This document shows positions 37,509 to 41,505 of a stretch of 64,000 nt of DNA, one piece after another. Source of the DNA: Luteococcus japonicus (GTDB lineage Bacteria > Actinomycetota > Actinomycetes > Propionibacteriales > Propionibacteriaceae); NCBI RefSeq assembly GCF_003752415.1, contig NZ_RKHG01000001.1:2976001-3040000 (forward strand), written 5' to 3'. The notes below the pieces were generated by a model. The model saw nothing but the letters and a program-made list of their open reading frames with translations, was not told the origin of the DNA and did not search any database. Within the stretch, counting starts at the first letter, position 1, and each line of letters opens with the position of its first letter. Made by a program: the position numbers and the translations under genes.

Positions 37509-37538
37509 TCGGCCGGCGGTTTTGTCGGAGCCTCCTTG

Positions 37539-37544
37539 TAGCCT
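37539..37544 (+). promoter_or_regulatory. -10 box (TAGCCT) for leaderless uvrB
   Basis: TAGCCT ends seven bases before ATG 37552. No SOS-type CGAAC-N4-GTTCG box was seen near it. Confidence 0.6.
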
Positions 37545-37551
37545 TCAAGGC

Positions 37552-39642
37552 ATGCGAGCAGTCGACGAGATCCAGCGCGTGGTGGCCCCCTTCACAATGC
37601 AGGCGGGCTTCGAGCCATCAGGGGACCAGCCCAAGGCCATCGACGAGTTGGAGCGGCGCATCCGCGCCGGTGAGCAGGACGTCGTGCTGCTGGGTGCCAC
37701 CGGCACCGGCAAGACCGCCACCATCGGGTGGCTCACGGAGAGGCTGCAGCGGCCCGTGCTGGTGATGCAGCCGAACAAGACCCTGGCGGCGCAGTATGCC
37801 AACGAGCTGCGGCAGTTCTTCCCGGACAATGCGGTGGAGTACTTCGTCAGCTACTACGACTACTACCAGCCAGAGGCCTATGTGCCGCAGACAGACACCT
37901 ACATCGAGAAGGACTCCAGCCTGAACGAGGAGGTGGAGCGTCTGCGGCACTCCACCACGGCCTCCCTGCTGACCCGCCGCGACGTGATCGTGGTGGCCAC
38001 CGTGAGCGCCATCTACGGTCTTGGTACGCCCGAGGAGTACGTGGACCGGATGGTCCGGCTCAAGGTCGGCGAGGAGTACGAGCGGGAGGCCCTGCTGCGG
38101 CGGCTGGTGGAGATCCAGTACGCCCGCAATGACCTGGCGGGAACTCGCGGCACCTTCCGGGTGCGTGGCGACACGCTCGAGGTCTTCCCGATGTACGAGG
38201 AGAATGCGGTCCGCATCGAGTTCTTCGGCGACGAGGTGGAGGCACTGTCCACCATGCACCCGCTGACCGGTGAGGTGCTGACCACCGACGAGGAGATGTA
38301 CATCTTCCCGGCCACGCACTACGTCGCCGGCCCCGAACGGATGGAGCGGGCCATCGTCGGGATCGAGAAGGAACTCGAGGAGAGGCTCGACGAGCTGCAC
38401 AAGCAGAACAAGTTGCTGGAGGAGCAGCGGCTTCGGATGCGCACCAACTACGACATCGAGATGATGCGCCAGATCGGCACCTGCTCGGGCATCGAGAACT
38501 ACTCACGGCACATGGACGGCCGACAGGCGGGGGACCCCGCGCACACCCTGCTGGACTTCTTCCCCTCGGACTTCCTGCTGGTGATCGACGAGTCACACGT
38601 CACAGTCCCGCAGATCGGCGGCATGTACGAAGGAGACGCCAGCCGCAAGCGGACCCTGGTGGAGCACGGCTTCCGGCTGCCCAGTGCCATGGACAACCGC
38701 CCGCTGCGCTTCGAGGAGTTCGTCGAGCGGATCGGGCAGACCGTCTACCTGTCCGCCACCCCCGGAAACTACGAGATGGCCCGTGCCGACGGCTTCGTCG
38801 AGCAGATCATCCGCCCCACCGGCCTGGTTGACCCGGAGATCGTCGTGAAGCCCACCAAGGGGCAGATCGACGACCTGCTGGGCGAGATCCGCACCCGGGC
38901 GGACAAGAACGAGCGCATCCTGGTCACCACCCTGACCAAGAAGATGGCCGAGGACCTGACCGACTACCTGATGGAGAACGGGGTGCGTACCCGCTACCTG
39001 CACTCCGAGGTGGACACCCTGCGACGGGTGGAGCTGCTGCGGGAGCTGCGGATGGGTGAGTACGACGTGCTGGTGGGCATCAACCTGCTGCGTGAGGGCC
39101 TCGACCTGCCCGAGGTGAGCCTGGTGGCCATCCTGGACGCCGACAAGGAGGGCTTCCTGCGCTCGGACCGCTCCCTGATCCAGACCATCGGCCGTGCCGC
39201 CCGCAATGTGGACGGTCAGGTGCACATGTATGCGGACAGGATCACGCCCAGCATGGAGCGTGCCATCGACGAGACGAATCGTCGCCGCGCCATCCAGGTC
39301 GCCTACAACACCGAGCACGGCATCGACCCGCAGCCGCTGCGCAAGAAGATCGCCGACATCACCGACATGTTGAACCGGGAGGATGCGGACACCGCCGCGT
39401 TGGTGGAGAAGGCCCAGCCGAGGGGGCGCAAGCCCTCGCAGCCGGTGCCGCAGCTGGGGGAGAAGCGGGCCCTCGACACGTCGAACATGGCCGTCAGTGA
39501 GCTGGCGGACCTGGTGCAGGAGCTCACCGAACAGATGCACACGGCGGCCAAGGAGCTGCAGTTCGAGCTCGCGGCCCGGCTGCGCGACGAGGTGGGTGAC
39601 CTCAAGAAGGAGCTCCGCAGCATGATCGAGGCGAACAAGTAG
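37552..39642 (+). CDS. uvrB: Excinuclease ABC subunit B
   Basis: A 696-residue helicase-like damage verifier of nucleotide excision repair. Walker A is 'GATGTGKT' near residue 44-51, the beta-hairpin that probes DNA is in '[25 protein letters not shown]', 'VIDESH' is the Walker B box, and 'QTIGRAARN' is motif VI. The C-terminal UVR motif ('[32 protein letters not shown]') binds UvrC. The upstream in-frame ATG at 37522 precedes the predicted transcript start; ATG 37552 is chosen. Confidence 0.97.
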
Positions 39643-39704: not shown

Positions 39705-40682
39705 TCAGTGCATCTCGGCGAGTTCCTCGTCGGACATGTTGCGGGTCTTCATGAGGCTGGCGACGGTCGTGACGACGAGGGTGACGACGATCACGCCGAG
39801 GCTCATCTCGATGCCGATCTCCGCCCAGTCGCCCACCAGGTGGTAGTGGTGCGCCGCGTGCAGCACGAGCTTCACACCGATGAAGCCCAGGATGATGGAC
39901 AGGCCGATCGGCAGGTAGACCAGCTTGTTCAGCAGGCCGCCGATCAGGAAGTAGAGCTGGCGCAGGCCCATCAGCGCGAAGGCATTCGCGGTGAAGACCA
40001 GGTAGGGCTCCTGGGTGAGGCCGTAGATGGCGGGGATGGAGTCCAGGGCGAAGAGCACGTCGGTGGAACCCAGGGCGACGATCACCAGGAACATCGGGGT
40101 GAAGAAGCGCTTGCCGTTGATCTTGACGGCGCTCTTGGTGCCCTGCCAGTCCTCGGTGAAGGGCAGCGTGCGCTTCACCCAACGGATCATCAGGTTCTCG
40201 GTTGCCTCGTCGTCGTGGTCCTTCTCGAAGTAGTCCTTGACCAGGTCGATCGCGGTGTACAGGAGGTACGCGCCGAAGATGAAGAAGACCCAGGCCGCGG
40301 CCTCGATCATGCTCTTGCCCAGCGCAATGAAGATCCCGCGGAAGACCAGGGCCAGGATGATGCCCACCAGCAGCGCGTACTGCTGCAGCTGACGGGGGAC
40401 CTTCATCTTCGCCATGATGATGATGAAGATGAACAGGTTGTCCAGGCTGAGGCTGTACTCGGTGAGCCAGCCGGCGAAGAACTCCTTGCCGTACTGGGGC
40501 CCGGAGAAATAGGTCACGCCGATGCCGAAGAGGATGGCCAGGCCGACGAAGGCACCGACGAAGATGCCGCACTCCTTCATCGAGGGCTCGTGCGGCTTGC
40601 GGCCGATCACGAAGACATCGAAGAGCAGGACGGCTGCCATCACGCCGATCGTGATGAGCCAGGTGTAGAGATGGATGTTCAT
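39705..40682 (-). CDS. TerC family membrane protein, probable Mn2+ exporter
   Basis: A 325-residue membrane protein with about nine helices. The two TerC motifs with metal-binding acids are 'EYSLSLDNLFIFIIIM' and 'ALGSTDVLFALDSIPAIYGLT'. TerC/Alx-type proteins move manganese out or across the membrane, sometimes to feed exported metalloproteins. The manganese riboswitch directly upstream strongly supports a manganese role. ATG 40682 follows AAAGG; upstream in-frame codons lie inside the riboswitch. Confidence 0.9.
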   Translation of the reverse strand: MNIHLYTWLITIGVMAAVLLFDVFVIGRKPHEPSMKECGIFVGAFVGLAILFGIGVTYFSGPQYGKEFFAGWLTEYSLSLDNLFIFIIIMAKMKVPRQLQQYALLVGIILALVFRGIFIALGKSMIEAAAWVFFIFGAYLLYTAIDLVKDYFEKDHDDEATENLMIRWVKRTLPFTEDWQGTKSAVKINGKRFFTPMFLVIVALGSTDVLFALDSIPAIYGLTQEPYLVFTANAFALMGLRQLYFLIGGLLNKLVYLPIGLSIILGFIGVKLVLHAAHHYHLVGDWAEIGIEMSLGVIVVTLVVTTVASLMKTRNMSDEELAEMH

Positions 40683-40703
40683 CCAGGACCTTTCGAGAGG
40701 GTC

Positions 40704-40837
40704 AGGGGAGTGCTGGAGGTCTCGTCCGCCACCCGTCCATGGGACAGGATGACCGCGGGCCGGACGCCGTGCTGGTGGCATCGTGATGACGACCCTGCTG
40801 CGTGGGATTACTCCCCTCCGGGGGAAATCCTCCCACG
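40704..40837 (-). promoter_or_regulatory. yybP-ykoY manganese riboswitch
   Basis: Reading the minus strand, the 5' signature GGAGGGGAGTA (40819 downward), GTCGTCA, CCGGCCC and the 3' signature GACGAGACCTCC (to 40715) appear in the order of the yybP-ykoY aptamer; GGAGG and CCTCC close stem P1. Downstream, ACTCCCCT (40711-40704) is the exact complement of AGGGGAGT in the aptamer (40817-40810). This gives an alternative pairing and thus a likely expression platform. Upstream CGTGGGA (40837-40831) can pair with TCCCACG (40807-40801). A small hairpin covers the AAAGG ribosome site. Confidence 0.85.
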
Positions 40838-40878
40838 GATCACGGCTCGGCCCAATTCAGCATCCAGAACCGATGCGG

Positions 40879-41505
40879 TCACCAGCCGCGTTGGCGCCAT
40901 ACGTCGAGGTGGGGGCGCTCGGCCCCCAGGGTGGTGGGCTCGCCGTGTCCCGGCCACACCACCGTGTCGTCGTCGAAGACCTCGAAGAGCTGGGTGATGA
41001 CCCCGTCGAGCAGGCTGGAGAAGTCCTCCGGCGTGCCGGTCTTGCCGACGCCGCCGGGAAAGAGCGAATCTCCCGTGAAGAGCTGCACCGGGGCATTCTG
41101 CGGGCGCAGCACCAGGGTGATGGAACCCGCGGTGTGCCCCACCAGACCGATGACGCCGATCCGGTGCTTGCCCAGCTGCACCCCGTCCCCGGTCCACAGT
41201 GGCTCGCTGGCAATGCCGGTCCGGCGCTCGATGTCGTCGCAGTCCGGGCGGCCGGCCAGGGTGCGAGCACCCGTGAGCCGGGCCGTCGCGAGGAGTGCGC
41301 CGACGTGGTCATGGTGCCGGTGTGTGGTGACGATCGTCTCGACGGTGAAACCGTCGACCAATCGGGCCAGGGTCTCTGGTTCTGCGGCGGCATCGACCAA
41401 CAGGGCTCGGCCGGCGCCGTCGTCGAGCAGATAGGCATTGTTGCCCATGCCGCCCACCACCACGCGGGTCAGGGTGAGTCCGTCGTCGAAGGTCGTCGTC
41501 TGCAT
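40879..41505 (-). CDS. MBL-fold hydrolase (glyoxalase II-like)
   Basis: A 208-residue metallo-beta-lactamase fold protein. The metal motif H-x-H-x-D-H is seen as His62, His64, Asp66 and His67 in '[13 protein letters not shown]'. Further ligands are His in 'LVGHTAGS' and Asp in '[13 protein letters not shown]', with '[11 protein letters not shown]' at the end. The length and motifs fit glyoxalase II-like thioester hydrolases; in actinobacteria the thiol is likely mycothiol rather than glutathione. ATG 41505 has AGGAG upstream and shares a base with the stop of the preceding gene. Confidence 0.87.

Follow-up and report, generated by a model that had tools for sequence, protein, structure and literature searches.

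We consider it quite probable that the leader at positions 40821-40683 on the minus strand of the window, i.e. the whole stretch of 64,000 nucleotides of Luteococcus japonicus DNA analyzed here, is a yybP-ykoY Mn2+ riboswitch that activates a TerC/Alx manganese exporter at the level of translation. The element belongs to a known class, of which it is an ordinary example, an Mn2+ riboswitch ahead of a TerC/Alx gene. The features of the leader and of the gene that follows it are collected in Table 1.

Table 1. Features of the terC leader and the gene downstream of it, in window coordinates
Feature	Position	Strand	Basis
Mn2+ riboswitch aptamer (yybP-ykoY type)	40711-40821	-	R1 67.9 bits, E 4.2e-13, model positions 1-109 of 109
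P1 (switch helix) 5' strand GGAGG	40815-40819	-	P1 pairs covary
P1 3' strand CCUCC	40715-40719	-	P1 covariation; also complementary to the Shine-Dalgarno region in many relatives
P2 5' strand GGGUCG	40790-40795	-	pairs with CGGCCC (40762-40757); fold of the window and P2 covariation (77 leaders)
L3 metal-site loop UCAUCAC	40783-40789	-	core CGUCANN(A/C)CG in 102 of 105 TerC leaders
P3 hairpin GAUGCC/GGCGUC	40763-40782	-	fold of the window; P3 pairing across leaders
P4 hairpin AUCCUGUCC/GGACGGGU	40731-40750	-	fold of the window; weak family support
Switching strand of the sequence-only reading, ACTCCCCT	40704-40711	-	unconserved; 1 of 105 leaders
Shine-Dalgarno GAAAGG	40689-40694	-	sequence; 6 nt ahead of the ATG at 40682
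TerC/Alx family membrane protein, 325 aa	39705-40682	-	Pfam TerC 160 bits; NCBIfam TIGR03718 359.2 bits
Predicted -10 box GAGGAT	40827-40832	-	fits the A(-12)/T(-8) signal; inferred

The conserved yybP-ykoY blocks follow one another in order on the minus strand between 40821 and 40711, as an earlier sequence-only reading of this DNA had described, beginning with GGAGGGGAGTAA (from 40819), continuing with TCGTCATCACG (40792-40782) and CCGG, and closing with GACGAGACCTCC (ending at 40715), after which come GAAAGG and the ATG at 40682. The identification of these blocks as a manganese riboswitch in that reading was supported by R1, a covariance model for which 44 leaders from Actinobacteria were aligned (alignment A1) with the genus of the window held out. 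R1 matched the element over its full length at E 4.2e-13, while the next best match in the 64-kb window had an E of 0.13, and across the genome R1 matched nothing but this element at E up to 0.01. The seeds of the model came from the TerC loci of relatives, 110 in number (30 plus 80 collected), of which the 230 bases upstream were scanned. The element was absent in 19 of these 110 loci by a looser and in 20 by a stricter pattern. A strict pattern, which the window itself did not fit, was matched by 77 loci (68 distinct sequences), and the 44 seeds were those taken from the 77 at less than 86% likeness, leaving out the window's genus. Comparisons across leaders were made on a set of 105, made up of 91 of the 110 TerC loci and 14 other loci, with some duplicates and 96 distinct tails; the other genome of Luteococcus (L002) is outside this set. 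In 13 of the 19 TerC loci that lack the riboswitch (L037, L064, L066, L067, L069, L071, L073, L076, L077, L081, L083, L112 and L117), the end of uvrB lies no more than 700 nt upstream, on the strand of terC. The same position of uvrB was seen in 25 loci with the riboswitch, and in the window uvrB (37522-39642) and terC (39705-40682) are convergent.

The downstream gene had been named as a TerC gene fitting manganese export, and its assignment to this family was borne out by both protein models, with the score for TIGR03718 well above the curated cut-off of 246.4. The name of this model, R_switched_Alx, presumably hints at a known tie between the family and the riboswitch. Homologues and the Shine-Dalgarno sequence favour a TerC start at 40682 over an in-frame ATG at 40781, which lies within the aptamer and would lengthen the protein to 358 aa. 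A second TerC gene of the same genome (G000:C1:474760-475374, L141; 161.8 bits) is without a riboswitch, since the only R1 match of the genome at the above threshold is that of the window. In addition, a near copy of the leader stretch 40720-40697 (96% over 24 bases) was noticed at G000:C1:2873222-2873245 (L027), where it sits at the start of an apparent coding frame and is probably due to chance.

The structural assignment draws on covariation across 77 leaders. When these were aligned to R1, 96.6% of the cells were paired, in an alignment that leans to the model, and pairing fell to 32.6-51.3% when the partner was slid by 1-3 columns. Changes on both sides of a pair were found in 133 cells compared to a shuffled mean of 37.1, a count reached by none of 500 shuffles, while the number of pairs with any both-side change (9) was matched by 28 of 500 shuffles and hence is less telling. 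In P1, G-C was replaced by A-U in 22 and 15 of the 77 rows at two of the pairs, and six of the ten P2 pairs were altered on both sides. The R1 alignment put the window's P2 3' strand further on than the fold of Table 1, at CGGUCAUCCUG. For P3, 242 of 310 cells were paired versus a shuffled mean of 182.2, with 0 of 500 shuffles as high, in a count that covered 62 of the 77 leaders, omitted the 15 rows with an L3 off pattern and had the window's own row out of register. The most stable stretch after L3, a stretch chosen for its stability, beat 90% of shuffles in 16 of 45 cases. The family signal for P4 was weaker, as three of 12 offset pairs exceeded all 200 shuffles and all three represent one register at different depths, the best of them pairing in 154 of 244 cells versus 127.3 in shuffles. 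The overall stability of the leader in energy folding was like that of its shuffles (z -0.47).

The loops agree with this picture. The L1 block GGGGAGUA at 40816-40809 adjoins the 5' strand of P1, the L1 sequence of the window being GGGGAGUAA, and GGGGAGTA is invariant in the 44 rows of A1. Both the L3 block UCGUCAUCACG after P2 and the CCGG after P3 are present in the window, and the 3' block GACGAGACCUCC leads into the 3' strand of P1. GAGACC is likewise invariant in A1, partly through the choice of seeds by that motif. The element has the L1, L3/CCGG and GAGACC features as well as the helices P1, P2 and P3 of the yybP-ykoY class, in which L3 forms the metal site according to PMC6754395.

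The sequence-only reading had named a scan with the Rfam model RF00080 as one check on its proposal and the lack of a hit as one possible refutation. RF00080 (Rfam 15) failed to match the window at the gathering cut-off, a 501-base stretch at E up to 10 and the entire genome at E up to 0.001; its one weak match in this genome (E 1.45) lies elsewhere, off the element. No match above cut-off was obtained in 20 related loci, and none of the 117 genomes of the order passed the cut-off. At E up to 10 some match was present in 33 of these 117 genomes and at E up to 0.001 in five, three of which (G049, G086 and G098) have it overlapping Gdt1 leaders detected by R1. R1, on the other hand, matched 101 of the 117 genomes at E up to 0.01, some of its seeds having been drawn from these, and 61 of 296 genomes of the phylum at E up to 0.001. 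The absent Rfam match represents a limit of RF00080 and the refutation does not hold, since the same model, with E allowed up to 10, still fails to detect the alx leader of E. coli and scores E. coli mntP at 41.6 bits versus a cut-off of 45, while R1 ranks alx first among its matches in 11 kb (E 0.0013, 21.2 bits). On mntP, R1 pointed to the right place with a weak match that ranked third (8.1 bits, E 0.96). RF00080 is thus nearly blind to the actinobacterial TerC version of the riboswitch.

The genes that follow other R1 matches bear on the ligand. We took 60 further loci, namely 40 of the 77 R1 matches listed for the phylum and 20 of the 22 in the order that were judged by eye to lie away from the listed TerC genes, two of which (L169 and L173) do precede TerC. 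The matches lie ahead of TerC/Alx in 27 cases and of Gdt1 in 20 (tblastn; Pfam GDT1 was confirmed for all three Gdt1 proteins tested), and the genes of the remaining 13 were neither of these and not MntP. Pfam assigned ten proteins of the 13 to P-type cation ATPases (eight), a Na+/Ca2+ exchanger (L212) and, at L205, an M50 peptidase that carries a CBS domain. No gene was recognised after L155 and L156, where a frame of 652 aa at L156 had no Pfam match. In Vibrio parahaemolyticus, MneA (UPF0016/Gdt1) and TerC are Mn2+ exporters that are induced by Mn and predicted to be under riboswitch control, as reported in PMC13274385, and PMC7380456 reports a UPF0016 gene under this riboswitch in 328 of 333 screened bacterial strains. 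By analogy, Mn2+ is likely the ligand of the window riboswitch, since one and the same model picks the alx leader along with leaders of Gdt1/MneA and cation ATPase genes.

Two other readings of the leader as a whole have to be weighed against an Mn2+ riboswitch. An aptamer of yybP-ykoY type could have had its main signal shifted to alkaline pH, Ca2+ or another metal. The best E. coli match of R1 is the leader of alx, which responds to alkaline pH besides Mn2+ according to PMC9603457, and the P-type cation ATPases and the Na+/Ca2+ exchanger behind some of the sister leaders would fit such a shift. The same source, however, states that top activation of alx requires Mn2+ plus high pH, and the Gdt1/MneA genes behind other sister leaders belong to a family with reported Mn2+ exporters (PMC13274385). 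We regard a shifted signal as very unlikely. That the leader is conserved for a reason other than a riboswitch, e.g. as a protein-binding leader, seems extremely improbable to us. The missing RF00080 match would be in keeping with it, as would the fact that binding of Mn2+ to this leader is a prediction, but R1 recovers the alx leader of E. coli and the conserved loops fit the class.

The comparison of loci also revealed two types of L3. Three of the 105 leaders departed from the core listed in Table 1, one being a row cut at the wrong place (L088) and two carrying the variant CGCCAUCACG (L089 and L100), and all three were kept in the count. Among the 60 further loci the same core was found in all 27 leaders of TerC/Alx genes and in all 13 of the others, while all 20 Gdt1 leaders (L157-L168, L170-L172, L174, L196, L204, L213 and L214) had C(G/A)ACAYRCU. 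The two E. coli leaders divide in the same manner, with alx (L154 2465-2575) belonging to the first type and mntP (L153 4375-4482) to the second. These counts cover Actinobacteria plus E. coli, include the kinship between loci and come from loci that were detected with a first-type model. It appears distinctly unlikely that the class consists of two aptamer subtypes, one of Alx/TerC and one of MntP/Gdt1, that travel with their genes and sense Mn2+ differently. If it did, the subtypes would differ e.g. in affinity or pH coupling, RF00080 would favour the MntP/Gdt1 type, and most actinobacterial TerC leaders would be unannotated. Our searches, confined to open-access literature, turned up no paper on the mechanism of actinobacterial TerC leaders or on two L3 types. 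Several of the Gdt1 leaders (L157, L159, L161, L162 and similar) carry a GC-rich hairpin and a short T run before the start, for example GGACGAGGAGCCTTTTT in L159, and leaders of this kind may act via transcription termination.

Among known systems, E. coli alx resembles the window in its TerC gene family, the GGGGAGUA block and the type of its L3 core (CGUCAUUACG), and it is missed by RF00080 just as the window is. It differs in an A-rich P1 strand (CAAAGG) and a lower GC content (0.48). The leader of terC (cg2157) in Corynebacterium glutamicum shares phylum and gene with the window. In PMC3890552 it has 49.1 bits for RF00080 in an earlier annotation and an observed transcription start, which lies 6 nt inside the annotated element and agrees with a start near P1. 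C. glutamicum, one of 14 control genomes, was not among the present RF00080 matches. E. coli mntP is alike in class and in its probable mode, in which Mn2+ frees the ribosome-binding site, and PMC11647493 describes it as a translational Mn2+ ON switch of this kind. It is unlike the window in its L3 type (CAACAUACU), its gene family (MntP) and its weak match to R1. The yybP-ykoY aptamer of Xanthomonas oryzae, for which a crystal structure is available, has a weak switch helix (P1.1 there) stabilised by Mn2+ (PMC6754395), as well as L1-L3 docking and a four-way junction, all of which are predicted for the window too, whereas its proposed platform is transcription antitermination.

The start of transcription matters for how the switch is read. 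When 85 leaders, the unique ones among 89, were aligned on P1, A at -12 (69%) and T at -8 (51%) stood out as a weak -10 signal, from which we infer that transcription starts at P1. In the window this signal would correspond to the -10 box of Table 1, with TTGGGC at 40855-40850 as a candidate -35 and a spacer of 17; no promoter was picked up in a scan that used a strict consensus. The sequence-only reading had further proposed an upstream pair of CGTGGGA (40837-40831) and TCCCACG (40807-40801). These are exact complements; the role assigned to them in the RNA is not supported, as CGTGGGA overlaps the predicted -10 box and so probably lies upstream of the start and outside the transcript.

In the mechanism that we favour, high Mn2+ would place the metal between L1 and L3, dock the legs of the junction and stabilise P1, and the closed helix (GGAGG 40819-40815 with CCUCC 40719-40715) would hold the strand CCUCCAG. 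At low Mn2+ P1 would open, and in most relatives its 3' strand would then pair with the Shine-Dalgarno sequence (CCUCCGG with CCGGAGG) and block binding of the ribosome. The 3' strand of P1 has an exact downstream complement of at least 7 nt in 64 of the 105 leaders. Duplexes were compared with shuffles in a set of 83 leaders (without repeated tails, tails shorter than 15 nt and loci below L030 except L002), and those of the 3' strand beat shuffles (p <= 0.05) in 53, compared to five for the 5' strand. In the window the duplex of the P1 strand with the start region was no better than shuffles (p 0.37), as was that of L002 (0.595), these being among 30 of the 83 leaders in all. Here UCCAG (40717-40713) could pair with CUGGA (40686-40682), beside GACC/GGUC; a similar CCAGC/GCUGG is present in L060 from Aestuariimicrobium (p 0.13 versus shuffles). 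No terminator-like site was found in 40650-40950, and this, together with the possible pairing of the P1 3' strand with the Shine-Dalgarno region in many relatives, suggests a platform that is probably translational. The earlier preference for translation over termination thus names the likely level, and the small hairpin over AAAGG on which it had been based can indeed be formed over GAAAGG by GACC/GGTC.

For the window, a second pairing competes for the OFF state. It had been proposed from the letters that ACTCCCCT captures AGGGGAGT (40817-40810), that is, the 5' strand of P1 plus L1, at low Mn2+, with the upstream CGTGGGA/TCCCACG hairpin as a third state in the full version. This would still be an Mn2+ riboswitch, one that is turned off by a different pairing, and the proposal overlaps the explanation given above, the alternative strands of the OFF state being ACUCCCCU and UCCAG. 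The two octamers are exact complements, as had been stated, and folding favours their pairing when the RNA starts at P1. For RNAs beginning at 40820 the octamer had a mean pair probability of at least 0.9 in seven of ten lengths (0.26, 0.56 and 0.67 in the others), and the values from 40819 were nearly the same. In all 20 cases of ligand-free folding with a start at P1, P1 itself stayed at or below 0.08 and UCCAG:CUGGA at about 0. The energies of a 161-base RNA were -59.2 with the octamer, -55.1 with the start region and -54.2 with P1 closed, in folds that contain neither ligand nor the order of synthesis. With 30 more bases upstream, the octamer fell to 0.18 or less in ten of ten lengths because the CGTGGGA hairpin forms, which is then part of the minimum-energy fold (-73.0), and the other Luteococcus genome likewise contains GTGGGA/TCCCAC. 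The octamer and the arm therefore exclude each other, so that the three-way switch would need parts that do not go together, one of which is probably promoter.

The relatives do not support an octamer switch, which may have arisen by chance. ACTCCCCT is the window's alone, since complements to the 5' strand do not exceed 6 nt in any other leader of the 105, and it is missing from the other Luteococcus genome. An octamer able to pair fully with the 5' strand appeared in 1498 of 20000 dinucleotide shuffles (7.5%) of the window's C-rich tail, a duplex as good as that of the window was obtained in 678 of 2000 tail shuffles, and the pairing itself leaves the Shine-Dalgarno sequence uncovered. When a leader is rich in GC, the presence of an exact complement counts only weakly as evidence for a switch. 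The octamer may be how the window's leader switches off, a reading that we consider rather unlikely, and the OFF pairing of the window may be formed either by the P1 3' strand with the start region or by the octamer.

The preferred reading, an Mn2+ riboswitch that acts through P1 on translation of terC, supports the view that, in a relative of propionibacteria, a TerC/Alx exporter is controlled by an Mn2+ riboswitch. In Actinobacteria, Mn2+ homeostasis is likely annotated incompletely, since RF00080 reaches its cut-off in none of the genomes of the order while the lineage model matches most of them.
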